A stretch of DNA of 64,000 nt, from NCBI GenBank assembly GCA_003054495.1, contig CP028514.1:1279501-1343500 (forward strand). Reading direction: 5' to 3'. The position numbers and the translations under genes were made by a program. The stretch comes from Carboxydocella thermautotrophica. Its GTDB lineage: Bacteria > Bacillota > GCA-003054495 > Carboxydocellales > Carboxydocellaceae. Every line of letters begins with the position of its first letter. Positions within the stretch are counted from its first letter, which is position 1. The notes below the pieces were generated by a model. The model had not been told where the DNA came from. It did not search any database and was given only the letters and a program-made list of their open reading frames with translations. Below, piece after piece: positions 5,809 to 29,129 of this stretch.

Positions 5809-5818
5809 GGAGGATTTT

Positions 5819-7538: not shown

Positions 7539-7540
7539 GG

Positions 7541-8398
7541 TTGGCCAGTTTGCGTTTGGGGCAGGTGGATTTTATCAATTGCCTGCCTGTCTATACGGCA
7601 ATAAACCAGGAGATTATTACCCTGGAGGCGGAAATCGTTCCCGGCCCACCGGCCCAGTTGAATCGCATGTTTTTACAGGGAGAACTGGATGTTACACCCA
7701 TTTCATCCATTGAATATGCCCGGCATGCTGACCAGTGTCTGGTTTTACCTGATCTATCCATTGGGGCGGATGGGGAAGTAATGAGCTTATTGCTTTTTTC
7801 CCGGATACCTGTTACTGAACTTGATCACAAAGTCATCGCCTTGCCTAACACATCAGCTACTACGATAGCCTTATTAAAAATATTACTGGAGCACTATTAC
7901 CATATCAGCTGTGACTTCGTCACCATGGAACCGGATTTAACAGCTATGTTATCCCGGGCCGAGGCGGCTCTGTTAATTGGCGACATCGCCATGATTGAAC
8001 AGCTAAAAGTGAACAGCGGCTATTATGAGGGCATAATAGTTACCGATGTTGGAGCTGTTTGGAAAGAGATGACCGGGGAAAGTATGGTGTATGCTGTCTG
8101 GGTGGTAAAAAAGGATTTTGCTGGAGAACACCCCCAGGAAATTGCCCGGCTGGCCAGTGCCCTGCAGGCTAGCTTGCGCTGGGGGCGGGAGCATGAAGAC
8201 CAGCTGATTGCCCTGGCCCAGGACCGCAGTCCCTGGTTTACTGAAGACTATCTGAGAAGGTATTTTCATACCATCACCCATTCTTTAACAGAGAAAGATA
8301 TTAGGGCAATGAATGCCTTCTTTGATTATGCTTATAAAACAGGGATACTGGAAGAAAGAGTGAAAATAGAGATCTGGAGGGAAAAAGATGGGCGTTGA
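7541..8398 (+). CDS. mqnA: Chorismate dehydratase
   Basis: MqnA dehydrates chorismate to 3-[(1-carboxyvinyl)oxy]benzoate, the first committed step of the futalosine pathway. The 285-residue protein has the family opening LRLGQVDFINCLPVY, followed by DVTPISSIEYA and the periplasmic-binding-like fold sequence LLIGDIAMI. The start is a TTG two bases after the mqnE stop, with GGGAGGG at the right distance. The end overlaps mqnC by 11 bases. Confidence 0.94.
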   Translation: MASLRLGQVDFINCLPVYTAINQEIITLEAEIVPGPPAQLNRMFLQGELDVTPISSIEYARHADQCLVLPDLSIGADGEVMSLLLFSRIPVTELDHKVIALPNTSATTIALLKILLEHYYHISCDFVTMEPDLTAMLSRAEAALLIGDIAMIEQLKVNSGYYEGIIVTDVGAVWKEMTGESMVYAVWVVKKDFAGEHPQEIARLASALQASLRWGREHEDQLIALAQDRSPWFTEDYLRRYFHTITHSLTEKDIRAMNAFFDYAYKTGILEERVKIEIWREKDGR

Positions 8399-9455
8399 AC
8401 CGATTTTAAAAAAGGCATTGGACGGTGAACGCCTGTCTATGACTGAAGGCGTTGCCTTACTCCAATCCAACGATCTGGTGGCGATTGGCCAGGTTGCTCA
8501 TCAGATCCGTTTACGCAAACACCCAGAAAACCTGGTGACTTTTGTAATTGATCGTAACATCAATTATACTAATATTTGTAAAGTAAAATGCCGTTTTTGC
8601 GCCTTTTACCGTTCGGAAGATGATGCTGATGCTTATGTTTTGTCCTATGAAGAAATCTACCGCAAAATTGAGGAAACACTAGCTGTTGGTGGTACGCAAA
8701 TTTTGATGCAGGGCGGTATTAACCCCAGTTTGCCTTTTGAATGGTACCTGGATTTGCTCAAAGGCATAAAGGAACGATATAATGTGCATATCCACTCTTT
8801 TTCGCCTCCGGAAATCGTACATCTGGCTGAAATCAGTGGGCTGAGTCTAAAGGAAACGATTGCTGCTTTACGGGAGGCTGGCCTGGATTCCATTCCTGGC
8901 GGTGGAGCTGAGATTCTGGACAACCGGGTCAGACATTATATCAGTCCCAGAAAAATTACCTGGGAGCAATGGATGGAAGTGATGATTATTGCCCATCAGC
9001 TGGGCATGAAAACAACAGCGACTATGATGTTTGGCAGTGTGGAAAGTCCTGAAGAGCGGGTGGCCCATATGGTACGGTTGCGGGAGGTTCAGGACCAAAC
9101 CGGCGGTTTTACGGCTTTTATACCCTGGAGTTTTCAACCTCTCAATACCGAACTGGGAGGCACTACCGCTGGTGGTTTTGAGTATTTGAAAACCCTGGCA
9201 GTCAGTCGTATAATGCTGGATAATTTCCCTAATATCCAGGCTTCCTGGGTAACCCAGGGGTCCAAAATGGCGCAAATTTCCTTGCGCTTTGGAGCCAATG
9301 ATTTCGGAGGCACCATGCTGGAGGAAAATGTGGTCAGAGCGGCAGGAGTAACCAACAGAGTGCCGATGGACGAGATAATAAGATGCATTAAGGATGCAGG
9401 TCATCGTCCTGCCCAGAGAGATACCTTATATCGCATTATCCGCTACTTTGATTAA
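8388..9455 (+). CDS. mqnC: Cyclic dehypoxanthinyl futalosine synthase (radical SAM)
   Basis: MqnC cyclises dehypoxanthine futalosine. The 355-residue protein has the radical-SAM motif CKVKCRFCAFYR around residues 60-71, the MQGGINP segment, HSFSPPEI, and SIPGGGAEIL, all typical of MqnC. It is clearly paralogous to mqnE (shared GGGAEI, ATM-FG-E, RLREVQDQTGGF). It completes mqnE-mqnA-mqnC. The nucleosidase MqnB, needed between MqnE and MqnC, is not in this cluster. Confidence 0.95.
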   Translation: MGVEPILKKALDGERLSMTEGVALLQSNDLVAIGQVAHQIRLRKHPENLVTFVIDRNINYTNICKVKCRFCAFYRSEDDADAYVLSYEEIYRKIEETLAVGGTQILMQGGINPSLPFEWYLDLLKGIKERYNVHIHSFSPPEIVHLAEISGLSLKETIAALREAGLDSIPGGGAEILDNRVRHYISPRKITWEQWMEVMIIAHQLGMKTTATMMFGSVESPEERVAHMVRLREVQDQTGGFTAFIPWSFQPLNTELGGTTAGGFEYLKTLAVSRIMLDNFPNIQASWVTQGSKMAQISLRFGANDFGGTMLEENVVRAAGVTNRVPMDEIIRCIKDAGHRPAQRDTLYRIIRYFD

Positions 9456-14715: not shown

Positions 14716-15849
14716 ATGAAAGTTCAAGGAATTGCCAAAGCGATAGTGGATAAGCTTCTGGAAACCAGTAACCGTCTGGGCCAGGGCCGCAATTGTGGTG
14801 TGTTCGGTCTGGTCAATGAACAGGGTATTATCGATTGTATCACTCCCCTGGTTGAGGGGGGGATTTCAGGTTTGCCCCTGCGCCAGCTTTTAAAATACAT
14901 CTGTAACATGGAAGGCAGACCTGTGATCGAAGGTTTGATGAGTTTGCCAGACAACGCCGTCTTCATTATTACACGGCCAGGGAAAAGCGGCTTGATTACT
15001 GATGTCAGTGGGATTAATTTTTTTGGCTGTTCTGTTGTGGCAATTGGTATTAAACATAAGCGTGTGGCTGGCATCGGTTATATTGATGTCAGGCCAGATT
15101 ATTTCGACCTGGGAACTAAAGCCGAGCGAGTGGATCTAGATATACTGGCCGCTGATAATATGGATGAGGAGAGAAGAGTATTGCAAGCCAGTAATGAATT
15201 AGCCCAGAGATTTCTCTACCTATCAGAGCCTGTCTCGGTTGTAGAGACAGAGCTAAAACCCTGGCCAGGGCCCTTTTGCCAGCAAAACTGGCAGCTCCAG
15301 CGGTTTGAGGTAAATACTATTGCCAAAGAGCTGGCTCAGGAGCTGGTAGTAAAGTCTACAGAGGTGGGACAAGGCCGGGAGGTAGCGGTAATCGGCATTG
15401 TGGATGAAAAGGGGCATGTTACCGGCATGGGAAAACCGGTAGTGGGTGGTATGGGCTATATCCCTTCCCGGCTAATTGCTTCCAGCGCTGTGGACATTAG
15501 TGGGAGGAGCCTAAAAGAAATTTATGCTAAACTGGTTCCGGAAAATGCCGTTTTTGTGCATACCCATCCTGGTGGAACCGGGGTCATGCATATGGGAGAC
15601 GCTATGGCTGGACCTGGGACCTGGGGTAGACCGATTATCGCCATTGGTCACGACCAGGATGGCAACATAAAAGGGGCTACAGTAATTGAAGTCCGAGAGG
15701 AAATTTTCCGGCTGGCAGATGAAGATGAGAAAATCAGTCAGGAGTTTTTCCAGGCTGAGACTCCGGAAGCAGAAGCGGAAATCCGTAACCGCAAATTCGG
15801 GATTGCCCAGGAATTTACCGCTTTATGTAAAGCAATTGAGCTCGTCTAG
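14716..15849 (+). CDS. Tandem-duplicated JAMM/MPN-like domain protein of unknown function
   Basis: This 377-residue cytoplasmic protein consists of two related halves (about 1-170 and 195-377). The C-terminal half holds a JAMM-like zinc signature, VHTHPGGTGVMHMGD around residues 280-294. It has His-x-His-Pro and an Asp at the position found in Rpn11-type metalloproteases, but His replaces the usual Ser. In the N-terminal half the matching segment reads IITRPGKSGLITD, so both metal histidines are lost. Flanking sequence is shared (LPDNAVF/VPENAVF, VVAIGI/IIAIGH). One half is therefore probably catalytic and the other structural or ligand-binding. No pathway can be assigned from context (sel operon before, ftsY after). 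Confidence 0.6.
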   Translation: MKVQGIAKAIVDKLLETSNRLGQGRNCGVFGLVNEQGIIDCITPLVEGGISGLPLRQLLKYICNMEGRPVIEGLMSLPDNAVFIITRPGKSGLITDVSGINFFGCSVVAIGIKHKRVAGIGYIDVRPDYFDLGTKAERVDLDILAADNMDEERRVLQASNELAQRFLYLSEPVSVVETELKPWPGPFCQQNWQLQRFEVNTIAKELAQELVVKSTEVGQGREVAVIGIVDEKGHVTGMGKPVVGGMGYIPSRLIASSAVDISGRSLKEIYAKLVPENAVFVHTHPGGTGVMHMGDAMAGPGTWGRPIIAIGHDQDGNIKGATVIEVREEIFRLADEDEKISQEFFQAETPEAEAEIRNRKFGIAQEFTALCKAIELV

Positions 15850-15864
15850 ACTTTATGCTAAAAT
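15836..15864 (+). promoter_or_regulatory. Possible promoter upstream of ftsY
   Basis: TTGAGC (15836-15841), a 17-base spacer, then TAAAAT (15859-15864). It overlaps the end of the preceding gene and lies before the terminator hairpin, so a transcript from here would pass through the hairpin. Confidence 0.4.
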
Positions 15865-15880
15865 TAAAAAATGATGCCAG

Positions 15881-15913
15881 TGGTTAAGGAGGCATCCTCC
15901 TTAACCATTTTTT
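15881..15913 (+). terminator. Strong terminator before ftsY
   Basis: TGGTTAAGGAGG (15881-15892) and CCTCCTTAACCA (15896-15907) form a perfect 12-bp stem with a 3-base loop, followed by six T. Confidence 0.85.
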
Positions 15914-15930
15914 GCGAGGGAGGGTATTAC

Positions 15931-16863
15931 ATGGGCTTTTTTAGCAAGTTAAAAGAAAGTCTGGCCAAAACCAGGCAGGTTTTCGTAGAAAAAATTGAGA
16001 CTTTATTAACGGGATACCGTAAACCCGATGAGGAGTTTTTCGAAGAGCTGGAAGAAGCTCTGATTCAGGCAGACGTGGGTGTGACTACTTCCATGCAGCT
16101 CGTAGAAAAACTGCAGAAGATATGCAAAGAAAGGCGCATTGAAGATGCATCACTATTAAAAGATGTGCTTGCTGAAGAAGTTGCCCGAATTTTAGGAGAA
16201 GAGGATATTGAGCTTAATCTGAAAGGGCAGCCGTTTTCAGTAATTCTCGTAGTTGGAGTAAATGGGGTAGGGAAAACCACAACCATTGGTAAACTAGCCT
16301 GGTTTTTAAAAAGCCAGGGCAAAAAAGTCATTCTAGCAGCAGGGGATACTTTCCGCGCCGCTGCGATTGACCAGCTGGAAATCTGGGGAAACAGAGCCGG
16401 AGTAGAAGTGATCAAGCACCAGGAAGGCAGTGATCCGGCGGCAGTAGCCTTTGATGCTATGCAAGCTGCTAGAGCTAGAAAAGCTGATGTTATCATTATT
16501 GATACAGCCGGGCGGCTGCATAACAAAGTTAATTTGATGGAAGAATTGAAGAAAATTAAACGAGTGATTCAACGAGAAGTTCCGGATGCCCCCCACGAGG
16601 TTTTGCTGGTACTGGACGCTACTACAGGACAGAATGCAGTAAACCAGGCCAAGATCTTTGGTGAGGCTGCCGGAGTAACAGGGATTGTCCTTACCAAGCT
16701 GGACGGCACTGCCAAGGGTGGAGTGATAATTTCCATTAAAAACGAGTTAAAAGTGCCGGTGAAATTCATTGGCATCGGGGAGAAGATGGAGGACTTGAGG
16801 CCCTTTGCCCCCCAGGAATTTGCCTCTGCCCTCTTTGACCGAAGTGATGCAAAGGAGATGTAG
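15931..16863 (+). CDS. ftsY: Signal recognition particle receptor FtsY
   Basis: FtsY is the membrane-bound SRP receptor GTPase that docks ribosome-SRP complexes at the translocon. The 310-residue protein has a short N domain (residues 1-95, no long acidic A domain) and the G domain with [15 protein letters not shown] (P-loop), [19 protein letters not shown] and [13 protein letters not shown] 15931, after GAGGGAGGG, is chosen over upstream in-frame codons lying inside the terminator. Its partner Ffh is encoded at 29.9 kb. Confidence 0.96.
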
Positions 16864-16867
16864 AAAA

Positions 16868-17659
16868 ATGGCGATTGAAGTAGCGATAATTGGGGGAACG
16901 GGAGTTTATGATCCCCGCCTGTTTAGCGATTTACGAGATGAGTTGCTGGAAAATGAATATGGCACTACCAGTGTAAAAATAGGACTTTACAAAGGCAAGG
17001 AAATAGCATTCCTGAATCGCCATGGGGCTGGACATTCTGTGCCCCCCCATCTGGTAAATTACCGGGCAAATATTAAGGCTTTAAAGGATCTGGGAGTTCA
17101 GAGGATTTTTGCAACAGCTGCAGTGGGTTCCCTGAAACAGGAATTCCCTCCCGGTGCTTTTGTCCTGGTAGATCAATTCCTGGATTTTACCAAACAGCGG
17201 GAATCCACCTTTTTTACCGGGGGCGAAAAAGGGGTTATTCATATTGATATGACTGAACCCTATTGTCCCCACTTGCGAGAAATCATCGCTCAGGCTGCAA
17301 GCAGAAAAGGCATCGAAATAGCCAAAGGCGGGGTGTATGTTTGTACTGAAGGGCCTCGCTTTGAAACCCCGGCGGAAATACGCATGTACCGTAGCTTAGG
17401 TGGAGATCTGGTTGGCATGACTTCCGTTCCGGAAGTGGTTTTGGCGCGAGAAGCGGAAATTTGCTATGCTACAATTGCCATGGTGACTAACTTTGCAGCT
17501 GGAATATCGCCCACTCCTTTAACTCATACGGAAGTACTGGAAACGATGGCCCAGAATGCAAGCAAGTTGCAAACCCTATTACTGGAGGTTATGGATAATC
17601 TACCCCAGGAACGGAATTGTAGCTGTGGCCGGGCTATTTCGGATCTGGGCAGTTTGTAA
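16868..17659 (+). CDS. mtnP: 5'-Methylthioadenosine phosphorylase (PNP family)
   Basis: MtnP phosphorolyses methylthioadenosine (MTA) to adenine and methylthioribose-1-phosphate. The 263-residue protein begins with [12 protein letters not shown] and has [19 protein letters not shown], the phosphate/ribose segments ATAAVGSL and [17 protein letters not shown], and [17 protein letters not shown]. It lies four bases after ftsY with AAAGGAG. It leads the mtnP-mtnA-ahcY-AOR-aldolase-deaminase run. Because a deaminase is encoded in the same run, it may in practice act on methylthioinosine or on aminofutalosine-type nucleosides; sequence alone does not settle this. Confidence 0.9.
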
Positions 17660-17673
17660 AGGAGGCAATTGTT

Positions 17674-18717
17674 GTGGAGAGCTTACGCTGGCGAGAAGGG
17701 ATATTGGAGATACTGGATCAAACCAGGCTTCCATTAACCATCGAATATGTACAATCCTCGGACTATCTGGCGGTAGCCAATGCCATTAAATCTATGCAAG
17801 TGCGCGGTGCGCCGGCTATAGGAGCGGCGGCTGCCTTTGGCTATGCCATGGGGGCCCGGGAACATCAAAACCTGCCCAGAGAGCAATTTCTGGCGGAAAT
17901 GCAAGAGGTGAAACAGGTCCTGGCCAGCACCAGGCCTACAGCTGTTAACCTGTTCTGGGCCTTAGATCGTATGGAGAAGAAACTGCTAGAGGTATCCCAC
18001 TTGCAGCCTGCAGAAATAGCCGACATTCTTCTGGAGGAGGCTAAAGCTATACACCAGGAAGATCTGGAGTTGAATCGCCGTATGGGTGAATATGGACAAC
18101 AGCTGATTCCCTCCGGAGCCCGTATTCTTACCCACTGTAATGCAGGGGCCCTGGCAACAGCAGGGTTTGGTACTGCCCTGGGGGTAATCAGAGCTGCCCA
18201 TGCTGCTGGCAAACAGGTACAGGTTTATGCTGATGAAACCAGACCTTTGCTGCAGGGGGCTCGCTTAACTGCCTTTGAACTTATGCAGGATGGGATTCCG
18301 GTTACCTTAATTACCGATAATATGGCCGGTTATCTGATGCGGCGGGGAATGGTTGATCTGGTCATAGTTGGTGCAGACCGCATTACTGCCAATGGCGATG
18401 TGGCCAATAAGATTGGTACTTATGGCTTAGCTGTTTTAGCCAAAGAAAATAAGATTCCATTTTATGTGGCGGCACCATATTCCACAGTGGACTTGACTTT
18501 GGCTTCCGGAGACGATATACCTATCGAAGAAAGAGATCCCCGGGAAATAACTCATATATGCGGCCAGCGGATTGCTCCCGAAGGGGTAAAAGTCTTTAAT
18601 CCAGCCTTTGATATTACTCCCAATTATTTGATTGATGCCATTATTACCGAAAAAGGAATTATCAGAAAGCCCTATAAAGTCAATTTGCAAAAAACATATG
18701 GGGAGGGAGCAAAATGA
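17674..18717 (+). CDS. mtnA: Methylthioribose-1-phosphate isomerase
   Basis: MtnA isomerises methylthioribose-1-phosphate to methylthioribulose-1-phosphate (MTRu-1-P). The 347-residue protein has [17 protein letters not shown] at about residue 47, the catalytic cysteine in [18 protein letters not shown] (about 153-170), and the catalytic aspartate in [20 protein letters not shown] (about 231-250). It uses a GTG start eight bases after AAAGGAGG and overlaps ahcY by four bases. The next classical salvage enzymes (MtnB dehydratase, MtnC, oxygen-dependent MtnD) are not here as a set; a class II aldolase is found instead. Confidence 0.95.
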
Positions 18718-19967
18718 ATTATCTAGTCAGAGATATCAACCTGGCGGAAAATGGCGCAAAAAAAATTGCCTGGGTTAAAGAACACATGCCGGTATTAAAT
18801 GAAATCCGTAAGGAATTTGAACGGGATAAACCTTTTAATGGAAAAAGAGTTGCCATTTCCATGCATTTAGAAGCCAAAACTGCTTACCTGGCTCTGGTTT
18901 TGCAAGCCGGGGGCGCAAATGTTAGCATCACAGGCTCTAATCCCCTCTCCACTCAGGATGATGTAGCAGCAGCACTGGCGGCACAAGGTTTACAGGTATT
19001 CTCCTGGTATAATGCTACTCCTGAGGAATACAAACAGCATTTATTGATGGTACTGGACACCCGGCCGGATATTATTATAGATGATGGTGGCGATTTAATG
19101 CATTTAATTCACACAGAAAGGCCGGAATTGGCTAGCTCCATTATCGGTGGTTGTGAAGAAACTACTACCGGTGTCTTGCGCCTGCGGGCCCTGGAAAAGG
19201 AAAACCGCCTGCCCTTTCCTATGATCGCTGTTAATGACGCCTATAGTAAATATTTGTTTGACAATCGTTATGGGACCGGGGAGTCAGTCTGGACAGGGAT
19301 TATGCGAACTACTAATCTGATAGTTGCAGGTAAGACAGTGGTCGTTATTGGTTATGGCTGGTGTGGGAAAGGGGTAGCGATGCGAGCTAAAGGCCTGGGG
19401 GCCAAAATTATTATTTGTGAGGTTGACCCCATCAAAGCCATTGAAGCCCATATGGATGGGTTCCAGGTAATGACCATGGATGAGGCAGCGGCTTTAGGAG
19501 ATGTGTTTATTACAGTTACCGGTTGCAAGGATGTAATCCGGCGCTGGCATTATGAAAAAATGAAAAACGGGGTACTGCTGGCCAATGCCGGACACTTTGA
19601 TGTGGAAATCAATAAACCGGAGTTGAATGAACTGGCAATAAGCAAACGGGTAGTACGCAAAGATATTGAAGAATTTACGCTGGCAGATGGTCGGAAGTTA
19701 TATCTACTAGCAGAAGGACGACTGGTTAATCTGGCAGCGGGTGATGGCCATCCTGCCGAAATTATGGATACTTCCTTTGCCTTGCAAGCTCTGTCAGCCC
19801 GTTATCTAGTGGAAAATGGCACCAAACTGGAGAAAAAAGTATACCTGGTTAGTCCGGAGATTGATAGGAGAGTAGCAGAATTAAAACTGCAGTCTCTCGG
19901 AATTACCATAGATAAATTGACACCGGAACAGGAAGCCTATCTTTATGGCTGGCAACATGGTGAGTAA
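18714..19967 (+). CDS. ahcY: S-adenosylhomocysteinase
   Basis: AhcY hydrolyses S-adenosylhomocysteine to adenosine and homocysteine with bound NAD. The 417-residue protein has the Rossmann motif [20 protein letters not shown] around residues 205-224, the substrate region [18 protein letters not shown], and GCKDVI. Its length matches the bacterial class without the large insert. Coupling to mtnA by ATGA places SAM by-product recycling (SAH and MTA) in one operon. Confidence 0.95.
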
Positions 19968-19987
19968 ACACTGGAAGGAGCACATTT

Positions 19988-21778
19988 ATGTTTGGCTGGA
20001 TGGGCAAAATTATTCGTATCGATCTAGACAATTATGAAGTAAAGGTAGACACAATTGTTGAAACAATTTACCGGCAATATATCGGGGGCAGGGGACTGGG
20101 AACTTATCTCCTTTACCGGGAAACGGATCCCGGTTTGGATCCCTTAAGTCCCCAGAACCCTTTAATTTTTACCGTTGGGCCCCTGACCGGAACGAAAGTA
20201 CCAACTTCCGGTAGATTTAGTCTATCCACTAAGTCGCCATTGACTGGAACCATTTTTGATTCCAATGCTGGTGGGGTCTGGGGGGTTAAGTTCAAACGCT
20301 GTGGCTTCGATGCCCTGTATATCAAAGGGAAGGCAGCAGAGCCGGTATATATAGTAATCAAGAATGACCAGATTCAAATAAAAGCTGCTGCTGAGCTCTG
20401 GGGAAGAGATACCAGGGAAACTACTGAATTGCTAAAACAAAAGGAAGGCAGTCAGGTAAGTGTAGCCTGTATTGGCCCTGCTGGAGAAAACCTGGTAAAA
20501 TATGCAGCTATCATTAACGACTATAGCCGGGCTTTGGGGCGCGGTGGTGTGGGAGCAGTTATGGGAGCCAAAAATCTCAAAGCCATAGTAGTTGATGGAG
20601 AGAAGAAGGTTCCTGTAGCAGATCCTGAGCGCCTGGATTTTGTGGTTTATGAAACTAATAAATGGCTAAAGGCTAATCCTATTACTTCCCAGGGACTCCC
20701 GGAATTTGGCACTGCAGTGCTGGTCAATCTTTTTAATGAACTGGGCATTTTACCCACTCGTAATTTTCAGCAGTCACAGTTCGAAAGGGCGGAAGATATT
20801 TCGGGAGAACGGCTAGCAGAAACCCTGACTATTAAGAGAAGTGGCTGTTATGCCTGTCCTATCCAGTGTTCCCGGGTTACTAAAGTAGGTGAACAATCAG
20901 GGGAAGGACCGGAGTATGAGACCATCTGGTCTTTTGGCGCTCAGTGTGGGATAGCTGACCTGGAGCTCATAACCCGGGCAAATTATCTCTGTAATTTGCT
21001 GGGTTTGGACACTATCTCTACAGGTAGCACCATTGGCTGTGCAATGGAACTGGCAGAAAAAGGGCATCTGACCGAGGATCTGGCTTTTGGTTCCCGGGAG
21101 AAAATACTGGAACTGATTGAATTTATCGCTTATCGACGGTCAATTGGAAATGACCTGGCGGAAGGCAGCAAAAGACTGGCAGAAAAATATGGAGCTCCCG
21201 AACTGGCTATGCAAGTAAAAGGCCTGGAGATGCCGGCCTATGATCCCAGGGGCACCCAGGGAATGGGACTGGCGCTGGCTACATCCAACCGCGGTGCCTG
21301 TCATTTACGAGCCTATATGGTAGGACCGGAAGTGCTGGGGGTACCGAAACTGGTAGATCCTTATAGCCCGGCAGGGAAGGCGGGGTTAACAATTAATTTC
21401 CAGAACATCAATGCCGCTATGGACACCCTGGTACTCTGCCGCTTTATTGGACTGGCGGTTTCAGAAGAATACTTTGCCCGCTTGCTGACTGCAGTGACAG
21501 GTATCAATTATCAGCCTCAGGATTTGCATATCATCGGGGAACGCATCTGGAACCTGGAAAGGCTATTTAATCTTAAAGCCGGCTTTAGCGCAGCTGATGA
21601 TACTCTTCCCCCAAGACTTTTAAAAGAACCAGTTCAATCGGGACCTGCTGCCGGTATGGTGGTACAGTTGGAAACCATGGTAAGGGAATATTACCATTAT
21701 CGGGGCTGGGACAAGCAAGGAGTGCCCACTCCCGCCAAATTAAGACAGTTAGGACTGGAGGAAGACCATAGTGCTTAA
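19988..21778 (+). CDS. aor: Tungsten-type aldehyde:ferredoxin oxidoreductase
   Basis: AOR-family enzymes oxidise aldehydes to acids, or run in reverse, with a bis-pterin tungsten cofactor and one 4Fe-4S cluster, using ferredoxin. The 596-residue protein has the family opening GKIIRIDLDNYEV and YIGGRGLGTYLLY. Pterin-binding stretches are SGRFSLSTKSPLTGTIFDSN and YDPRGTQGMGLALATSNRG. The cluster cysteines are CYACPIQC (about residues 290-297) plus CNLLGLD around residue 337. It sits between ahcY and a class II aldolase whose start it overlaps by eight bases. That coupling suggests the aldolase's aldehyde product as its substrate, which is an inference. Confidence 0.92.
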   Translation: MFGWMGKIIRIDLDNYEVKVDTIVETIYRQYIGGRGLGTYLLYRETDPGLDPLSPQNPLIFTVGPLTGTKVPTSGRFSLSTKSPLTGTIFDSNAGGVWGVKFKRCGFDALYIKGKAAEPVYIVIKNDQIQIKAAAELWGRDTRETTELLKQKEGSQVSVACIGPAGENLVKYAAIINDYSRALGRGGVGAVMGAKNLKAIVVDGEKKVPVADPERLDFVVYETNKWLKANPITSQGLPEFGTAVLVNLFNELGILPTRNFQQSQFERAEDISGERLAETLTIKRSGCYACPIQCSRVTKVGEQSGEGPEYETIWSFGAQCGIADLELITRANYLCNLLGLDTISTGSTIGCAMELAEKGHLTEDLAFGSREKILELIEFIAYRRSIGNDLAEGSKRLAEKYGAPELAMQVKGLEMPAYDPRGTQGMGLALATSNRGACHLRAYMVGPEVLGVPKLVDPYSPAGKAGLTINFQNINAAMDTLVLCRFIGLAVSEEYFARLLTAVTGINYQPQDLHIIGERIWNLERLFNLKAGFSAADDTLPPRLLKEPVQSGPAAGMVVQLETMVREYYHYRGWDKQGVPTPAKLRQLGLEEDHSA

Positions 21779-22364
21779 TATGTTCCAGTTGGTAGGCCGG
21801 GACCTTTTTCAATCGGGATTAAACAATTCCCATAGTGGAAACTTAAGTATCAGGCAGGGAGACCGGATAATTATTACCCGTCGCGGAGCAATGCTGGGAC
21901 ATTTAACAGAGCGGGACCTAATTGAAACTGGGCTGGAGAAAAATGATTGCCATATTACCCTGGCGTCAACAGAAATTCGGGTCCACCGGGCCATTTACCG
22001 CAATACAGCGGCCCTGGCTATTGTCCATGCCCATCCGGTGTTTGCAACAACCCTGTCACTTTTGGAAGATGAGATTATACCTGTGGACTCAGAAGGAGCC
22101 TATTTGTTGCATAAAATACCAGTATTGAGTGTGGAACATACAGTGGGCTCACAGGAAGTTGAACAAAAACTCCCTGACTTATTGAAGGAATACAAGATTG
22201 TGATGGTTCGCGGCCATGGCAGTTTTGCTATTGGTCAATTGCTGGAAGAAGCCTATCAATTAACTGCCAGTCTGGAACACAGCTGTAAGATAGCTTATTA
22301 CACTCGCTTATTAAAAGAAAGGGAGAATCCGAAAGCTAAAACGAAGCAGCTGGCCCAGTGGTAG
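21771..22364 (+). CDS. Class II aldolase/adducin-family protein, candidate MTRu-1-P aldolase
   Basis: The 197-residue protein has the family zinc ligands in VHAHPVF (about residues 84-90) and a later histidine in RGHGSF (about 147), with the phosphate-binding segment NNSHSGNLSIR near the start. Members include fuculose-1-phosphate aldolase, ribulose-5-phosphate 4-epimerase and MtnB dehydratase. In the anaerobic MTA (DHAP) shunt of Rhodospirillum and some E. coli, a member splits methylthioribulose-1-phosphate to DHAP and 2-(methylthio)acetaldehyde. Its place right after mtnA, ahcY and an aldehyde oxidoreductase favours that role over dehydration. It has a GTG start overlapping AOR; ATG 21780 is an alternative. 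Confidence 0.8.
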   Translation: MLNMFQLVGRDLFQSGLNNSHSGNLSIRQGDRIIITRRGAMLGHLTERDLIETGLEKNDCHITLASTEIRVHRAIYRNTAALAIVHAHPVFATTLSLLEDEIIPVDSEGAYLLHKIPVLSVEHTVGSQEVEQKLPDLLKEYKIVMVRGHGSFAIGQLLEEAYQLTASLEHSCKIAYYTRLLKERENPKAKTKQLAQW

Positions 22365-22380
22365 AAAAGGAGGGTGCTTT

Positions 22381-23691
22381 ATGGGCAGTTTATTAATTAA
22401 AAACGCAACTGCTATATTGCCAATGACTGGGCCGGATCAGATTTTGTACAATGCTGATCTGGCCATTGAAGGCAAGGAAATCAAGTATGTCGGAAACGTG
22501 CCCGCTGAATTTCAACCCGATACAGTAATAGATGCCAGAGGCAAGGTCGTTATGCCGGGTCTGGTTAACTGTCACAACCATGCCGCAATGACGCTGCTGA
22601 GGAGTTATGCTGATGATTTACCATTAATGGAATGGCTACAGAAAAAAATCTGGCCAATCGAGGCCCATCTAAATAGTGAAGATGTATACTGGGGTTCATT
22701 GCTGGCCTGTGCTGAAATGGTTAAGAGTGGAACTACCCTCTTTGCTGATATGTATTTTGAAATGGGCAGAGTGGCTGAAGCTGCTCAGGTAGTAGGAATC
22801 AGAGCTAATTTGGCCCGGGGCATGATCGGCTTTGGACCGAATGCAGAGCGGGCCATTAATGAATCAGTAGAGCTGGTAGAATGCTGGCATTGCAAGGCAG
22901 ATGGCATGGTCAAGGTTATGCTTGGACCCCATGCACCTTATACCTGCCCACCCGAGTATCTGGAACGGGTAATGAAACTGGCTGATGATCTAAAAGTAGG
23001 TATCCATATTCACCTGGCAGAAACTAAAGCCGAAGTGGAAGAAATTAAAGAAAAATACGGCACCACTCCTGTTAAATTGATGGACCAGATTGGTCTCTTT
23101 AAGGGACGGCAGGTTCTGGCCGCGCACTGTGTCCATTTAACTGATGAAGAGATGGAAATACTGGCCAACCATAAAGTTGGAATTGCGCATAATCCGGAGA
23201 GCAACATGAAGCTTGCTTCTGGAGTGGCCCCAGTTCCCCGCCTCCTGGAGTTAGGGGCTGTGGTTGGCCTGGGGACAGATGGGCCTTCCTCTAACAATAA
23301 CCTGGATCTAATGCAGGAAATGAGAAGCGCAGCTCTACTACATAAAGTTTTTACCATGAACCCTACGGTGTTGCCTGCTTACACAGCTCTGGAGATGGCT
23401 ACGGTTAAAGGGGCTCAGGCCCTTGGCTACGATAATCTGGGGCAGTTGCAACCAGGATACCTGGCTGATATCATCTTAATCGATCTGGAGAAGCCCCATT
23501 TATACCCGCGCCATGACCTGATAGCCAATCTGGTCTATTCGGCTACTGCAGCAGACGTAGATACGGTGATTGTTAACGGTCGAGTCATCATGACCGAACG
23601 CAAACTTCTTTTTGTTGATGAAAAGGAAGTTATTGAGAGAGCAGAAGCCCGGACGAAGGAACTACTGGCCCGGGCTGCCAGCGAAAAATAG
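22381..23691 (+). CDS. mtaD: 5-Methylthioadenosine/S-adenosylhomocysteine deaminase
   Basis: This amidohydrolase (436 residues) has the metal ligands HNHAAMTLLR (about residues 66-75), HIHLAETKAE (about 207), AAHCVHLT (about 243) and the catalytic aspartate in LGTDGPSSNNN (about 298). It deaminates MTA, SAH or adenosine to inosine-type nucleosides. Relatives in some futalosine organisms deaminate aminofutalosine, so a role in menaquinone synthesis is possible. It is the last gene of the MTA/SAH run and is followed by a terminator. Confidence 0.9.
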   Translation: MGSLLIKNATAILPMTGPDQILYNADLAIEGKEIKYVGNVPAEFQPDTVIDARGKVVMPGLVNCHNHAAMTLLRSYADDLPLMEWLQKKIWPIEAHLNSEDVYWGSLLACAEMVKSGTTLFADMYFEMGRVAEAAQVVGIRANLARGMIGFGPNAERAINESVELVECWHCKADGMVKVMLGPHAPYTCPPEYLERVMKLADDLKVGIHIHLAETKAEVEEIKEKYGTTPVKLMDQIGLFKGRQVLAAHCVHLTDEEMEILANHKVGIAHNPESNMKLASGVAPVPRLLELGAVVGLGTDGPSSNNNLDLMQEMRSAALLHKVFTMNPTVLPAYTALEMATVKGAQALGYDNLGQLQPGYLADIILIDLEKPHLYPRHDLIANLVYSATAADVDTVIVNGRVIMTERKLLFVDEKEVIERAEARTKELLARAASEK

Positions 23692-23697
23692 GGAAAA

Positions 23698-23725
23698 GTA
23701 GCCTGTCCCGTTGGGGCAGGCTTTT
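23698..23725 (+). terminator. Terminator after mtaD
   Basis: GCCTGTCCC (23701-23709) and GGGGCAGGC (23713-23721) form a 9-bp stem with a 3-base loop and four T after it. Confidence 0.75.
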
Positions 23726-23752
23726 GCCGTTTTATAAAAGGAGTGATATAAT
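23724..23752 (+). promoter_or_regulatory. Extended -10 promoter for the DUF2600 gene
   Basis: TTGCCG (23724-23729), 17 bases, then TATAAT (23747-23752), with TG one base before the -10. It begins in the T-tail of the terminator just upstream. Confidence 0.6.
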
Positions 23753-23781
23753 CATAGTGATTCATTGACAGGAGGTAGCTC

Positions 23782-24813
23782 ATGAAAAAAGCGGTTCAAT
23801 GGACAAAATGGCTGTACAGGTATATCGTGGAAGTTATGCCTCAGGTAGAACAAAGGCTTGCTAACTGGAAAGAGCTAGCGGAAAGAATGCCCGAAAATTT
23901 ATTAAAAACTCAAGCTCTAGCAAGCATTGAACATAAAAAGTTCCACTGTATTGGAGGGGCAGTTTTTGCCCTTTATCCAGGGGCCAGGCAGCAGGAAGTG
24001 CTTGATTTTATAGTTGCCTTTCAGACAATCAGTGATTATCTGGATAATCTCTGTGATCGGGCCCAGGTAATTGAAGAGCAAGCTTTTCGGCAGTTGCATT
24101 ATGCCATGCTGGATGCAATTAGGCCGGCAGCAGCCAGCCGTGATTATTATCTTAATTATCCTGTAAAGAATGATGGCGGTTATTTAAACCAGCTGGTTAC
24201 GACCTGTCAAAAGGCATTAAAGAGTTTGGGCTGGGATGAATCCAAAGCTCACCTAGCAGCAGAGTGGGTTACCTTATACAGTGAACTTCAGATCTATAAA
24301 CACCTGGATTGGTCAGTGCGGGAAAAAAAGTTAGAGACATGGGCTAGAGAAGCTGGAAAGAGTTACTGGAATCTATATCCCATGGAATTTGCGGCTGCTA
24401 CAGGTTCTACCCTGGGAGTGTTTGCTCTGGTAGCAGGCTTGGAGCCACAAGAAGCGAGTTATTATTTTCCCTGGATTACGGGTTTACATATACTTTTAGA
24501 TTACTATATTGACCAGGAGGAAGACAAAAAAGAGGGAGATCTGAATTTTCATTTTTATTATGCGACTGATGCGGAAAGGGAAAAACGCTTGATTCTGTTT
24601 TATAAAAATGCTAAAGATTCAATTAACAAGCTCCAGTATAATAGTTTTCATGAGCTGGTGATTACGGGGTTACTGGCTATGTATCTTTCAGATCCCAAAA
24701 CGAATGTACCGACTCTAATGTCGGGAAGACAATTAATATTAAAGGAAAGTAGCCTGGAAGCTCAAATTTTACATACCCTTTGTGTATTTTTAAGAAAAGC
24801 TGGCAAGTTGTAG
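23782..24813 (+). CDS. DUF2600 family protein (YtpB-like terpene synthase)
   Basis: The 343-residue protein matches the DUF2600 family, whose Bacillus member YtpB makes tetraprenyl-beta-curcumene from heptaprenyl diphosphate in spore-forming cells. Two acidic clusters stand out: TISDYLDNLCDR around residue 75 and LLDYYIDQEEDKK around 234, which could bind diphosphate-Mg. It has its own promoter and terminator boundaries. The true substrate is unknown. It would draw on the same heptaprenyl pool that supplies the menaquinone tail. Confidence 0.75.
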   Translation: MKKAVQWTKWLYRYIVEVMPQVEQRLANWKELAERMPENLLKTQALASIEHKKFHCIGGAVFALYPGARQQEVLDFIVAFQTISDYLDNLCDRAQVIEEQAFRQLHYAMLDAIRPAAASRDYYLNYPVKNDGGYLNQLVTTCQKALKSLGWDESKAHLAAEWVTLYSELQIYKHLDWSVREKKLETWAREAGKSYWNLYPMEFAAATGSTLGVFALVAGLEPQEASYYFPWITGLHILLDYYIDQEEDKKEGDLNFHFYYATDAEREKRLILFYKNAKDSINKLQYNSFHELVITGLLAMYLSDPKTNVPTLMSGRQLILKESSLEAQILHTLCVFLRKAGKL

Positions 24814-24825
24814 GGAGCTGATATT

Positions 24826-26496
24826 ATGAGCTTATTGCTAACCCTGTTTGAGAGGTTAACAGTAGTAGTAACGATAGCTTACCTTTTTTCACGTACCCCC
24901 TTGTTTCGGAGATTGTTACGCCAGGATTTGACCTGGCGAGAAAAAGGGGGGATGGTGATTATTTTTGGGATAATCACCATTCTGGGCACTTATTATGGTA
25001 TTCCAGTCAAAGGTGCCATCGCCAACTCCCGCGCAGTAGGAGCCATAGTGGCCGGTTTGCTAGGGGGACCAGCAGTAGGAGCTATAACTGGCCTTATCGG
25101 AGGAATTCACCGCTGGTCTCTGGGAGGATTTACGGGTTTTGCCTGTGCTGTTTCCACTACAATAGAGGGACTGTTAGGAGGCCTGGTCAATAAATACTGG
25201 CCCAAACAAGCGATGGACTGGCGAGTAGGTTTTGTTACCGGCTTCATTGCTGAATCTTTACAGATGCTGATCATTCTTGCTTTAGCCCGTCCTTTTGTTT
25301 CAGCTCTTGATCTGGTGAAAGTAATAGCAGCACCAATGACTATTGTCAACGCAGCTGGGATTGCTATTTTTATTATGATAGTCCGCCAGAGTTTTCAGGA
25401 ACAGGAACGAATAGCTGCCTTTATGGCACAACTGGCCCTGAAGATTGCTAATTATACTTTGCCTATTTTACGCCATGGACTGACTATCCAATCTGCCGGG
25501 GAAGTTGCTCAGATAATTTTAAGAGAAACCGGTTCAGCAGCGGTAGCGATAACTGACCGGGAAAACATTCTGGCACATGTAGGTGCCGGCAGTGACCATC
25601 ATCTACCCGGTCAGCCTATCCAGACAGAGGCAACCCGGATAGTAATTGAAACTGGTCAAACCAAAATTGCTGGTAGCAGGCAGGAAATCGACTGTTCCCA
25701 TCCGACCTGTCCTTTAAATACAGCGGTAATAGTTCCATTAAGGCAAAATCAACAGGTAGTAGGTACTTTGAAAATCTACCATCGTACCAACAAACCTGTA
25801 ACAGAAGTGGAAATAGAATTTGCCAATGGTCTAGCCCACCTGTTTTCCACCCAGCTGGAGCTGGCGGAACTGGAACGGCGTTCTCAATTACTGGCTGATG
25901 CTGAAATAAGAGCGTTACAGGCCCAGATTAACCCTCATTTTTTATTTAATGCCCTTAATACTATTATGTTATTTTGTCGTACCGATCCAGAAAAAGCGAG
26001 AGGTCTATTGGCGCAGTTAGGCGACTATTTTCGCAAAAATCTTCAGGACAACAAACGACTGGTGGATATCAGAGAGGAAATCGAACACGTAAAAGCCTAT
26101 TTAGCGATTGAGGAGGCCCGTTTTGGCCATCGCATTGCTATAACCTGGCAGATTGATCCTGAATTGAGACCGGTAAAGATTCCCCCGTTAACTCTACAAC
26201 CATTAGTTGAAAATGCCCTGCGTCATGGATTGTTGCCCAAACGGGGTTTTGGCAATTTGCAAATAGGTATTAAACAAGAGCGGAACCAGGCACTGGTCTG
26301 GATAGAAGATGATGGCGTAGGGTTCAATCAAACAAAAAAAGAATCAGATGGGAGTGGAATGGGGCTGAAAAATGTGGATGCCCGTCTGCGTAGCTGGTTT
26401 GGCCCGGAAGCGGGGTTAAAGATAATTAGTCCATTGCCAGGTCAGACTTATGGAACCAGGGTGGAGTTTGTTATACCGGAAGGAGTACAAAAATGA
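24826..26496 (+). CDS. LytS-type membrane sensor histidine kinase
   Basis: The 556-residue protein has a 5TMR-LYT membrane domain (about residues 1-190, including NSRAVGAIVAGLLGGP). A GAF-like domain follows (about 210-345), with GAGSDHH and CSHPTCPLNTAVIVPL. Next come the phospho-acceptor segment ALQAQINPHFLFNALNTI (about 365-382) and a HATPase domain with LVENALRHG and DDGVGF. It overlaps the response regulator by four bases and is followed by cstA. E. coli BtsS/BtsR control the CstA-family pyruvate importer BtsT, so sensing of external pyruvate or a related nutrient is a reasonable inference. Confidence 0.9.
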   Translation: MSLLLTLFERLTVVVTIAYLFSRTPLFRRLLRQDLTWREKGGMVIIFGIITILGTYYGIPVKGAIANSRAVGAIVAGLLGGPAVGAITGLIGGIHRWSLGGFTGFACAVSTTIEGLLGGLVNKYWPKQAMDWRVGFVTGFIAESLQMLIILALARPFVSALDLVKVIAAPMTIVNAAGIAIFIMIVRQSFQEQERIAAFMAQLALKIANYTLPILRHGLTIQSAGEVAQIILRETGSAAVAITDRENILAHVGAGSDHHLPGQPIQTEATRIVIETGQTKIAGSRQEIDCSHPTCPLNTAVIVPLRQNQQVVGTLKIYHRTNKPVTEVEIEFANGLAHLFSTQLELAELERRSQLLADAEIRALQAQINPHFLFNALNTIMLFCRTDPEKARGLLAQLGDYFRKNLQDNKRLVDIREEIEHVKAYLAIEEARFGHRIAITWQIDPELRPVKIPPLTLQPLVENALRHGLLPKRGFGNLQIGIKQERNQALVWIEDDGVGFNQTKKESDGSGMGLKNVDARLRSWFGPEAGLKIISPLPGQTYGTRVEFVIPEGVQK

Positions 26497-27251
26497 AAAT
26501 CAGGGTACTAATAGTCGATGATGAACTGCCAGCTAGACAAGAGTTAAAATTCCTGCTAAAAGATTATCCCGAAATTGAAGTAGCAGGGGAAGCTGATAGT
26601 GGACAGGAAGCCCTTGAACTGGCACAACAACTGGAGCCAGAACTGGTTTTTTTGGATATTCAGTTACATGACATGTCCGGACTTGAAGTAGCAAAATTTC
26701 TGGCAAGGCTAGTACCCCGGACCAGAGTAATTTTTGTTACAGCATATGACCAGTATGCGATCGAGGCTTTTGAACTTCATGCCCTGGATTATTTGCTGAA
26801 ACCGGTGAATAAAATAAGATTACAAAAAACTATCCAGGAATGGAAAAATATCAAAGCCGTTAATGAGCATTATCAAATTTTAAAAGAAACAATAGAACAT
26901 CTACAAAAAGGGAAAAAGACAAAAATCCCTGCAATAAAAGATGGAAGGATTTTGTTGATTAACCAGGAAGATATTCTCTATATCAAAGCAGAGGGCAGGA
27001 ATGCCGTTGTCAGGGTTGAGGGCCACGATTTTCCAACGAATTTCTCACTATATGAAATTGCCCAGAAACTCAACCAGGATAGTTTTCTAAAGGTTCATCG
27101 CAGTTATATAGTTAATCTGGAAGCTATCGTGGAAATCGTCCCCTGGTTTAAAGGTACTTACAATCTGATCTTTAGAGATAAAGAGGCAGAAGTAGTTCCT
27201 GTCAGCCGATCCTACGTCAATGAATTTAGAGAAAAACTAGGGCTTGTTTAG
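26493..27251 (+). CDS. LytR/AlgR-family response regulator
   Basis: The 252-residue regulator has a receiver domain with the acid pocket VDDE (9-12), phospho-acceptor Asp in LVFLDIQLHDMSGLE (about residue 55), the TAYDQYA threonine and the KPVN lysine. A LytTR DNA-binding domain covers about 145-250 (FLKVHRSYIVNL). It pairs with the overlapping LytS kinase. LytTR proteins bind paired direct repeats upstream of targets, and the short gap before cstA is the obvious place. Confidence 0.93.
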   Translation: MKIRVLIVDDELPARQELKFLLKDYPEIEVAGEADSGQEALELAQQLEPELVFLDIQLHDMSGLEVAKFLARLVPRTRVIFVTAYDQYAIEAFELHALDYLLKPVNKIRLQKTIQEWKNIKAVNEHYQILKETIEHLQKGKKTKIPAIKDGRILLINQEDILYIKAEGRNAVVRVEGHDFPTNFSLYEIAQKLNQDSFLKVHRSYIVNLEAIVEIVPWFKGTYNLIFRDKEAEVVPVSRSYVNEFREKLGLV

Positions 27252-27260
27252 ACCATTTCG

Positions 27261-27300
27261 TGTCGATTTTAGGACATTTTATGTCGAAAATGCTGTCGAA
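27261..27300 (+). promoter_or_regulatory. Cluster of TGTCGA repeats upstream of cstA
   Basis: TGTCGA begins at 27261, 27282 and 27294; the last two extend to TGTCGAA, the core of the Spo0A box. They are 12 bases apart, about one helical turn. They could be Spo0A sites or operators of the adjacent LytTR regulator. I do not see a good -35/-10 pair to anchor them. Confidence 0.45.
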
Positions 27301-27362
27301 AAGGCGGTATGGCAGTACACTGAAAATGCAATTATAAGTCTTTTTGCAGGAGGTGTACTGAT

Positions 27363-29129
27363 ATGCACGCACTAACTCTTGTTTTGACGGCAGCTCTGGT
27401 TTTAATTTTAGCGTATCGGTTTTATGGTGCTTTCATTGCTGCCAAAGTTCTGGCCTTTGACGGTGAACGCACCACGCCCGCCCATCGCTTTAATGATGGT
27501 AAAGACTATGTTCCCACCAATAAATGGGTTGTCTTTGGCCATCATTTTGCGGCGATTGCCGGGGCTGGACCACTGGTTGGCCCGGTGCTGGCAGCACAAT
27601 TTGGCTATTTGCCCGGTTTCCTCTGGATTCTGATCGGTGCTGTGCTGGCAGGGGCGGTTCACGACATGGTAATCTTATTCGCCTCTGTTCGTCATGATGG
27701 AAAATCCCTGTCAGACATTGCTCGCGCTGAAGTAGGACCAGTTACTGGCTTTGCAACCGGGATTGCCATTTTGTTGATTATCCTTATTGCGATGGCCGGA
27801 TTGGGGATTGTTGTAGTAAATGCCCTGTTCCAGAATGCCTGGGGGGTATATACCGTAGGCATGACAATTCCCATTGCAATTTTCATTGGTTTATATATGC
27901 ATAAATGGCGTCCTGGAAAAATTGGTGAGGCTTCCCTGATCGGTACGGCTTTGATCATGCTGGCGGTAATAACTGGTCCCTATATTAAAAATTCTGGTTT
28001 CGCCAGCTGGTTTATCTTTTCTGAGAACGCTTTAAAGATCTTGCTGCCAACATATGGGTTCCTGGCAGCTGCGCTTCCAGTTTGGCTGTTGCTGGCCCCC
28101 CGGGATTATTTAAGCTCTTACCTTAAGATCGGCACCATCTTGGCCCTGGCGCTGGGGATCATTATTGTCAATCCGGAAATTCATATGCCGGCAACCACCA
28201 AGTTCGTTGCTGGAGGCGGTCCGATCATTCCCGGTAAGGTTTGGCCTTTTGTTTTCATCACCATCGCCTGTGGAGCTATTTCGGGTTTTCATGCTCTGAT
28301 TTCCTCAGGTACTACTCCTAAAATGATTAATAACGAAAAGGACATTCAACTGGTCGGTTTTGGCAGTATGCTGGTTGAAGCTTTTGTTGGTGTAATGGCT
28401 TTAATTGCTGCCACAGTTCTTCTGCCTGGCGATTATTTTGCCATCAACACCAAACCTGAAGTTTTTGCCAAACTGGGGATGCAAATTGTTAACCTGCCGG
28501 AGCTATCCAGATTGGTTGGCGAAGAAGTGGCGGGTCGGCCCGGCGGTGCTGTATCACTGGCTGTAGGTATGGCCTATATTTTCTCCAGCATACCTGGATT
28601 AAAACATCTGATGGCTTACTGGTATCAGTTCGCCATCATGTTCGAAGCACTCTTTATTTTAACAACCATTGATGCCGGTACCAGGGTAGCCCGTTATATT
28701 TTGCAAGATTTTGCCAGAGTCAAAAACCCCAATGCCCCCTGGAACGTCATCATCACCAGTGCTATCGTTTCCTTTGCCTGGGGATACTTGATTTACGGTG
28801 GTGAAATTAAGACCATCTGGCCAATCTTCGGGGTTTCCAACCAGTTATTAGCAACTCTGGCTCTGGCAATCGGCACTACTATCATTCTTAAGAAAAGCGG
28901 AAAAATATCATACGCTTTGATTACTTTCGTGCCGATGGTTTTCCTGGCCATTACAACAATTACTGCTGGACTAACTACAATGATCAACGTCTATCTACCG
29001 AAAGGGATGTACTTGAATACCGGGCTAAGTATCTTGATGATTTCACTGGCTGCTGTTATTTTGCTGGATTCCTTCCGGCGCTGGTTCCAGATCATCAAAA
29101 CCGGTGAAAGATCATCATTACTGCAATAA
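27363..29129 (+). CDS. cstA: CstA-family carbon starvation transporter
   Basis: The 588-residue membrane protein has about 15-16 hydrophobic helices. CstA signatures are VPTNKWVVFGHHFAAIAGAG (about residues 50-69), LVGPVLAAQFGYLPGFLWI, GAVHDMVILF, and GFHALISSGTTPKM in the middle. The family imports peptides or pyruvate. It follows the LytS/LytR pair after a 111-base gap with repeats, which mirrors the known kinase-controlled pyruvate importer arrangement. It has a clear GCAGGAGG ribosome site. Confidence 0.93.
   Translation: MHALTLVLTAALVLILAYRFYGAFIAAKVLAFDGERTTPAHRFNDGKDYVPTNKWVVFGHHFAAIAGAGPLVGPVLAAQFGYLPGFLWILIGAVLAGAVHDMVILFASVRHDGKSLSDIARAEVGPVTGFATGIAILLIILIAMAGLGIVVVNALFQNAWGVYTVGMTIPIAIFIGLYMHKWRPGKIGEASLIGTALIMLAVITGPYIKNSGFASWFIFSENALKILLPTYGFLAAALPVWLLLAPRDYLSSYLKIGTILALALGIIIVNPEIHMPATTKFVAGGGPIIPGKVWPFVFITIACGAISGFHALISSGTTPKMINNEKDIQLVGFGSMLVEAFVGVMALIAATVLLPGDYFAINTKPEVFAKLGMQIVNLPELSRLVGEEVAGRPGGAVSLAVGMAYIFSSIPGLKHLMAYWYQFAIMFEALFILTTIDAGTRVARYILQDFARVKNPNAPWNVIITSAIVSFAWGYLIYGGEIKTIWPIFGVSNQLLATLALAIGTTIILKKSGKISYALITFVPMVFLAITTITAGLTTMINVYLPKGMYLNTGLSILMISLAAVILLDSFRRWFQIIKTGERSSLLQ

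Follow-up and report, generated by a model that had tools for sequence, protein, structure and literature searches.

A six-gene row in Carboxydocella thermautotrophica suggests an oxygen-independent route for S-adenosylmethionine by-products that ends in an aldehyde oxidoreductase

Within a 64,000-nucleotide stretch of the Carboxydocella thermautotrophica genome (contig CP028514.1, positions 1,279,501 to 1,343,500; hereafter the window), we analyzed a row of six genes comprising mtnP, mtnA, ahcY, a tungsten-type aldehyde:ferredoxin oxidoreductase (AOR) gene, a class II aldolase gene and mtaD. We propose that this operon serves to dispose of and salvage, without oxygen, the nucleosides left over from S-adenosylmethionine (SAM), by a route in which deamination comes first and the AOR comes last, and we give this reading a probability of roughly 0.6. 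The standard methionine salvage pathway needs oxygen; to our knowledge, little has been established about what strict anaerobes do with SAM by-products, and the physiological aldehydes of the AOR family are mostly guessed. The dihydroxyacetone phosphate (DHAP) shunt, S-inosylhomocysteine hydrolases, methylthioinosine phosphorylase and AORs are all established, so that the new element would be a DHAP shunt ending in an AOR, with a predicted substrate and direction for that enzyme. If correct, the proposal would provide a concrete role for one clade of the large AOR family, explain how anaerobes rich in radical SAM enzymes cope with 5'-deoxyadenosine and the aldehyde derived from it, and connect the ferredoxin pool with SAM turnover. 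The genes, including those acting on 5'-methylthioadenosine (MTA) and S-adenosylhomocysteine (SAH), are as follows.

15871-16863, + strand: ftsY, a conserved neighbor outside the pathway, in the same order in L091-L096
16868-17659, + strand: mtnP, MTA-phosphorylase family, putative methylthioinosine/5'-deoxyinosine (6-oxopurine) phosphorylase (TIGR01694, NF006599, Asn motif)
17674-18717, + strand: mtnA, GTG start (TIGR00512, 469.5 bits against a cut-off of 279)
18714-19967, + strand: ahcY homolog with an HxExK motif, putative S-inosylhomocysteine hydrolase (TIGR00936, 624 bits against a cut-off of 497.6)
19988-21778, + strand: AOR of the tungsten AOR family, aldolase-paired clade (PF01314, PF02730)
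21771-22364, + strand: class II aldolase, GTG start, putative 5-deoxyribulose-1-phosphate/5-methylthioribulose-1-phosphate aldolase (NF006413, 255.4 bits against a cut-off of 203)
22381-23691, + strand: mtaD/dadD, amidohydrolase of the MTA/SAH/5'-deoxyadenosine deaminase type (PF01979; best PDB match 4f0r)

All six open reading frames (ORFs) lie in one run on the plus strand where the initial annotation had placed them, and their coordinates bear out the gene content, the positions, the 4-base ATGA overlap between mtnA and ahcY and the 8-base overlap between the AOR and aldolase genes that it described. Spacings from mtnP to mtaD are 14, −4, 20, −8 and 16 bases, with the mtnP ORF, listed with a TTG start at 16805, taken here from the ATG at 16868. 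The family names of the six genes agree with their Pfam and NCBIfam profile matches. The row runs on from ftsY, whose stop at 16863 leaves 4 bases before the mtnP ATG, and ftsY is probably co-transcribed with it. Besides the window we recovered six operon-type loci (L091-L096), five with an AOR and one without (L096). The five with an AOR (L091-L095) keep the whole gene order, including ftsY upstream, and all come from genomes of a single family, f13.

The aldolase at the center of this row passes the NF006413 cut-off and scores 52.5 bits against the MtnB model TIGR03328, short of its cut-off of 137. Judged by hidden Markov model score, it is therefore not MtnB-like; the initial annotation had named a phylogenetic placement with the MtnB dehydratases as grounds for refuting its scheme. 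Its Glu68, His86, His88 and His149, which we take to have the catalytic roles of their counterparts in Escherichia coli FucA, are kept in 33 of 33 aligned sequences, and its best PDB match is 2fk5, a fuculose-1-phosphate aldolase. In the genome, which is 99.6% complete, the operon aldolase is the sole class II aldolase-domain protein, no second one of MtnB type being found, and acireductone dioxygenase (ARD, MtnD) is represented by 0 PF03079 matches. Because neither a second class II aldolase nor ARD was found, known enzymes should not suffice here for the oxygen-dependent branch of methionine salvage. Of the two proteins whose presence elsewhere in the genome would have spoken for that branch, MtnD was thus not found and MtnC was not searched for.

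We searched 398 genomes of the phylum for the aldolase family and found it at E ≤ 1e-35 in 27, in 24 of them over the family cut-off. Of 14 control genomes, two also gave a match, Thermus composti and Methanosarcina acetivorans, one of the two over the cut-off. Leaving out the window's genome and one more of the same species, an AOR gene directly adjoins the aldolase gene on the same strand in 13 of 25 aldolase genomes, compared with about 0.09 expected by chance from AOR counts and genome sizes if a gene is taken as 950 bases, a figure that ignores kinship. The pairing of aldolase and AOR is not due to chance. In genome_contigs the count covered the 10 closest loci, ahead of 45 others, and 8 of the 10 carry the pair, among them two Pelotomaculum and metagenome-assembled genomes labeled Chloroflexota and Actinobacteria. 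Three of the loci (L009, L011 and L012) correspond to G259, G283 and G277, already among the 13, and were counted once. The two genes overlap by 7-8 bases in five relatives (L007, L010, L012, L013 and L016). The neighborhood search that the initial annotation had called for also turned up a second, differently built cluster in G274 (L108), where the genes run in the order ABC permease (PF02653), mtnA (TIGR00512, 426 bits against 279), solute-binding protein (PF01547), MtnK (TIGR01767, 536 bits against 275), AOR, aldolase, the second figure being the cut-off. This different order supports a tie between the AOR-aldolase pair and the use of methylthioribose or 5-deoxyribose.

The AOR of the window carries both family domains, PF01314 and PF02730 (AFOR_N and AFOR_C), together with Cys 287/290/294/484 (CxxCxxxC plus a distal Cys), Glu311 and His439, residues to which we assign cluster-binding and active-site roles on the presumption that work on the P. 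furiosus AOR carries over. It shares these domains, cluster cysteines and active-site Glu and His with tungsten AORs in general (1aor, 9mqx, 9g7j) and differs from them in its aldolase-tied clade. The paired AORs (the window's and 18 others) split from 19 unpaired AORs, four of which come from the window's own genome, with support of 97/98 and in 98% of bootstrap trees. In a larger tree, to which we added the ten unpaired AORs that rank next across the phylum and from which two long rows were removed, the split against 27 unpaired AORs received 93/93 and 90% of bootstrap trees (97/93 without the divergent L097). On these trees the paired AORs form one clade, separate from the genome's other AORs, and at 14 alignment positions a residue shared by 18 or more of the 19 paired sequences occurs in no more than 5 of the 29 unpaired ones. 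Ranking AORs across the phylum, we found that 12 of the 13 best matches outside the species (at least 689.6 bits) adjoin an aldolase; the exception is the AOR of G361, 55% identical and unpaired, which sits between ferredoxin-like and MoaD-like genes (L151). Identity alone was ruled out as a mark of pairing, this G361 protein falling outside the paired clade and the paired AOR of G258 having the lowest score among the matches listed. By our reading of the starts of the neighboring sequences, seven of the ten next-best unpaired AORs have a radical SAM and a MoaD-like protein for neighbors and the other three a ferredoxin-like and a MoaD-like protein; none is beside the aldolase. Separately, the window's genome holds two near-identical AORs about 5 kb apart (L003 and L004; C1:2.370 and 2.375 Mb), which share about 51% identity with the operon AOR.

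We next consider the enzymes expected to act upstream of the aldolase. AhcY homologs with HxExK prefer S-inosylhomocysteine and those with HxTxE(Q) prefer SAH, according to PMC10978960. The window's protein has HLEAK, a motif kept in 6 of 6 operon-type loci, L096 among them, and HxExK also appears in its first and third best PDB matches, 7r37 and 7r3a; 7r3a carries the name S-inosyl-L-homocysteine hydrolase. This suggests an enzyme that prefers S-inosylhomocysteine, and its base specificity is better supported than that of MtnP. MtnP may likewise be an inosine-type enzyme. It passes the methylthioinosine phosphorylase model NF006599 (260.3, cut-off 223) as well as the MTA phosphorylase model TIGR01694 (299.8, cut-off 274.85), and its VTNFAAG stretch has Asn where the six best-matching PDB MTA-phosphorylase sequences have Asp (a further relative listed, 3ozb, lies outside this count). 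The Asn is kept in the same six loci, including the one that lacks an AOR, and a similar ITNMAAG occurs in the first purine nucleoside phosphorylase (PNP) of the genome, which scores over TIGR01700 (inosine/guanosine). Two PNPs, the operon MtnP and one distant relative make up the four PF01048 proteins of the genome. The matches listed for these four include no MTA/SAH nucleosidase model. The amidohydrolase has as its best PDB match the MTA/SAH deaminase 4f0r (307 bits), with TM0936 (1p1m) at 261 bits; a genome search at E ≤ 1e-8 gave no second copy of it, and it is the candidate for the genome's DadD-type deaminase. Because the AhcY HxExK and the MtnP Asn look inosine-type, the deaminase is probably the first enzyme to act, whether on SAH, MTA or 5'-deoxyadenosine, with mtaD as the entry step as in methanogens. 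The MTA-first scheme of the initial annotation thus keeps its aldolase-AOR link and gives way in its upstream order, where HLEAK and VTNFAAG point to mtaD as the probable entry.

From the observed genes, their order, motifs and conservation and the AOR clade, we infer the following substrates, products and AOR direction. The amidohydrolase would convert SAH, MTA and 5'-deoxyadenosine to their inosine forms, and the AhcY homolog would split S-inosylhomocysteine into inosine and homocysteine. Methylthioinosine or 5'-deoxyinosine would pass to the MtnP homolog, yielding hypoxanthine and a 1-phosphate sugar, which MtnA would turn into the ribulose-1-phosphate form and the class II aldolase would cleave to DHAP and (methylthio)acetaldehyde or acetaldehyde. 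The partner AOR would then oxidize the aldehyde to (methylthio)acetate or acetate and reduce ferredoxin. Standing in place of the alcohol dehydrogenase of the DHAP shunt, it would remove a toxic aldehyde and save low-potential electrons. Conversely, the AOR might run in reverse, making aldehydes from acids at the cost of reduced ferredoxin and feeding an aldolase condensation. We take AOR-type enzymes and class II aldolases to be reversible, but the upstream phosphorylase, isomerase and deaminase appear to fit degradation best and the row seems to offer no enzyme to use newly made ribulose-1-phosphate, which makes this direction very improbable.

With regard to the source of the substrates, radical SAM enzymes such as MqnC, whose gene is present in the window, make 5'-deoxyadenosine, and acetaldehyde is a standard AOR substrate. 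5'-Deoxyadenosine, acting through acetaldehyde, seems at least as likely a source for the AOR as MTA. A SAM decarboxylase (TIGR03330) at 716-1099 is a possible source of MTA; a reading of the ORFs in the first 12 kb, with no search aimed at the enzyme, showed no spermidine synthase. The initial annotation considered MTA and left aside 5'-deoxyadenosine, which would be as good a source or a better one.

Several observations weigh against the proposed route, both among its upstream enzymes and around the aldolase. Upstream, MtnP also passes the MTA phosphorylase cut-off, as given above. The second PNP of the genome has Asp (VTDMAIG) although it scores 357.5 against the inosine-guanosine model TIGR01700, whose cut-off is 293, so that the Asn/Asp sign is not clean and the phosphorylase step is weakened. 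The amidohydrolase scores over no cut-off in the best 25 of 62 NCBIfam families, and reaches 406 against the 5'-deoxyadenosine deaminase model NF005557, whose cut-off is 522. One alternative is a direct MTA phosphorylase route, with an AOR that serves (methylthio)acetaldehyde only and with SAH and deaminase genes that supply separate side activities. MtnP's score, the SAM decarboxylase within the window and the unclean Asn/Asp sign among the genome's own PNPs all favor it, but the HxExK of AhcY and the Asn of MtnP are kept in 6 of 6 operon-type loci and the deaminase gene lies inside the operon. Moreover, PMC10986504 reports that one set of shunt enzymes processes both MTA and 5'-deoxyadenosine in E. 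coli, giving (methylthio)acetaldehyde or acetaldehyde. On balance we consider the direct MTA route unlikely.

Around the aldolase, 12 of the 25 aldolase genomes outside the species have no adjoining AOR, 5 of the 13 pairs come from one family (f13), and G059 (L096) has the window's gene order without the AOR. The paired AOR of G258 (L097) scores 573.6 bits, the lowest among the matches listed, and two paired AORs are without a key residue (no Glu in L097, no His in L016 of Pelotomaculum terephthalicicum). Co-occurrence with mtnA was ruled out as proof, mtnA being found in 309 of 398 genomes of the phylum and 25 of 26 aldolase genomes. Finally, some pairs lie near other kinases: rhamnulokinase-like genes in L098 (508 bits) and, on the other strand, L103 (436 bits), neither reaching the cut-off of 528; ROK kinases in L101 (PF00480 scan) and L100 (by reading); and a xylulokinase-like gene in L012 (344 bits, cut-off of 380 not reached). 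Since these pairs lie near such kinases and not near mtn genes, the AOR-aldolase pair looks like a wider module whose aldehyde may differ. The aldolase tree does not gather the paired rows into one clade and needs at least three label changes; given this and the unpaired and kinase-side loci, gains or losses of the AOR seem to have occurred beside the aldolase, and different loci may deal with different aldehydes. The suggestion in the initial annotation that the AOR is an oxygen-free stand-in for the MtnBCD branch is accordingly strengthened by an aldolase that is not MtnB-like, the ARD search and a conserved, clade-specific AOR link, and weakened by those pairs that lie by other kinases, away from mtn genes.

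The same kinases raise the alternative that aldolase and AOR form a general deoxysugar module, taking for example rhamnulose-1-phosphate or fuculose-1-phosphate to DHAP and lactaldehyde and then lactate, and that their place in the operon does not set the substrate. The five kinase-side pairs and the fuculose-1-phosphate aldolase 2fk5 as best PDB match speak for this explanation, but the window's gene row has no sugar kinase or sugar transporter, the full mtn context is common to five other genomes, and L108 carries mtnK with mtnA; we judge it a little less likely still than the direct MTA route. Among nine unpaired aldolase loci that we looked at (L096, L102, L104, L106, L107 and L109-L112; L113-L115 were left out), six show, by reading, a ROK-like kinase a short way upstream (L102, L104, L106, L107, L109 and L110). 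Small MoaD/ThiS-like proteins also recur beside NF006413 aldolases (L098 by PF02597 scan; L101, L104 and L110 by reading), even without an adjoining AOR (L104 and L110), and are accompanied by ROK-like kinases in L101 (scanned), L104 and L110 (by reading). A MetE/UroD-like protein recurs downstream at several aldolase loci, again by reading.

A further set of genes in the window touches on the deaminase and MtnP. At 3498-9455 lie, in a row, ubiD, ubiA, a ubiX-like flavoprotein gene, mqnE, mqnA and mqnC, of the futalosine path to menaquinone (the three mqn genes at 6423-9455), and this row holds no aminofutalosine deaminase or futalosine hydrolase. The operon amidohydrolase or a distant MTAP-like protein (L150:1408-2250) might fill that gap. 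It is also conceivable that the deaminase and the MtnP homolog serve menaquinone synthesis wholly or additionally, by deaminating aminofutalosine and removing hypoxanthine. Beyond the mqn genes themselves, this would agree with the lack of a futalosine hydrolase model among the matches listed for the four PF01048 proteins and of a second deaminase-like protein at E ≤ 1e-8 (the adenosine deaminase family was not searched for). Nevertheless, the best PDB match of the deaminase is an MTA/SAH deaminase, its gene is grouped by order with mtnP, mtnA and ahcY, and its score against the aminofutalosine deaminase model NF006269 (111.6, cut-off 320) speaks against a sole role, so that we regard this explanation as improbable.

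The proposed deamination-first, AOR-ended route resembles several known systems in part. Like the operon, the DHAP shunt of Rhodospirillum and E. coli ATCC 25922 (MtnP or nucleosidase with MtnK, then MtnA, Ald2 and an alcohol dehydrogenase) uses MtnA and a class II aldolase to bring 5-methylthioribulose-1-phosphate or 5-deoxyribulose-1-phosphate to DHAP and an aldehyde without oxygen, as described in PMC10986504 and PMC6302742. In contrast to the shunt, the operon aldolase is paired with an AOR, its row has a deaminase with a putative inosine-type hydrolase and phosphorylase, and no alcohol dehydrogenase lies in the row (the genome was not searched for one); the operon aldolase is assigned by score to NF006413. 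The shunt aldehyde is converted to 2-(methylthio)ethanol according to PMC6302742, and the abstract of PMC12632272 mentions just an aldehyde. SAH deamination followed by an HxExK hydrolase is common to the operon and to the DadD/S-inosylhomocysteine hydrolase route of Methanocaldococcus and Thermotoga (PMC10978960), which the operon departs from by joining these genes with an aldolase and an AOR in one bacterial row. Universal methionine salvage (MtnB, MtnC/WX, MtnD) has MtnA and the phosphorylase family in common with the operon and differs in the two proteins not found in this genome, a second class II aldolase-domain protein and ARD. The initial annotation knew of no description of the AOR link, and our own limited search, confined to open-licence PubMed Central, found no account joining AOR to MTA, 5'-deoxyadenosine or a class II aldolase, AOR to lactaldehyde or rhamnose, or 5'-deoxyadenosine deaminase to an aldolase or acetaldehyde.

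A broader and more tentative idea, which we hold to be possible though clearly less probable than the route itself, is that aldolase-coupled AORs are a distinct class. Such enzymes would oxidize the aldehyde from cleavage of any deoxyketose-1-phosphate (acetaldehyde, (methylthio)acetaldehyde or lactaldehyde) to the acid with reduction of ferredoxin, perhaps by direct hand-over from the aldolase. In the window, the AOR would complete a deamination-first recycling of SAH, MTA, 5'-deoxyadenosine and possibly aminofutalosine, and turn radical SAM waste into low-potential electrons.

As to regulation, a scan of the whole window brought no Rfam family, riboswitches included, up to its gathering score, and scans of 15700-24000 found promoter and terminator sites no commoner than in shuffled sequences (11 against a mean of 11.3, and 5 against 8.9). 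Directly upstream of ftsY, at 14716-15849, lies a gene for a 377-residue protein that is found there in 6 of 6 operon-type loci as well; it matches nothing in Pfam, NCBIfam or PADLOC at the thresholds used and has, by reading, two similar halves and a VHTHPGGTG stretch. Downstream of the operon, 23782-24813 encodes a DUF2600 protein, of a family that we believe to include a Bacillus terpene synthase. It is followed at 24826-29129 by a LytS-like sensor (5TM-5TMR_LYT, His_kinase) and then, by sequence reading, a LytTR-like regulator and a CstA-like transporter.

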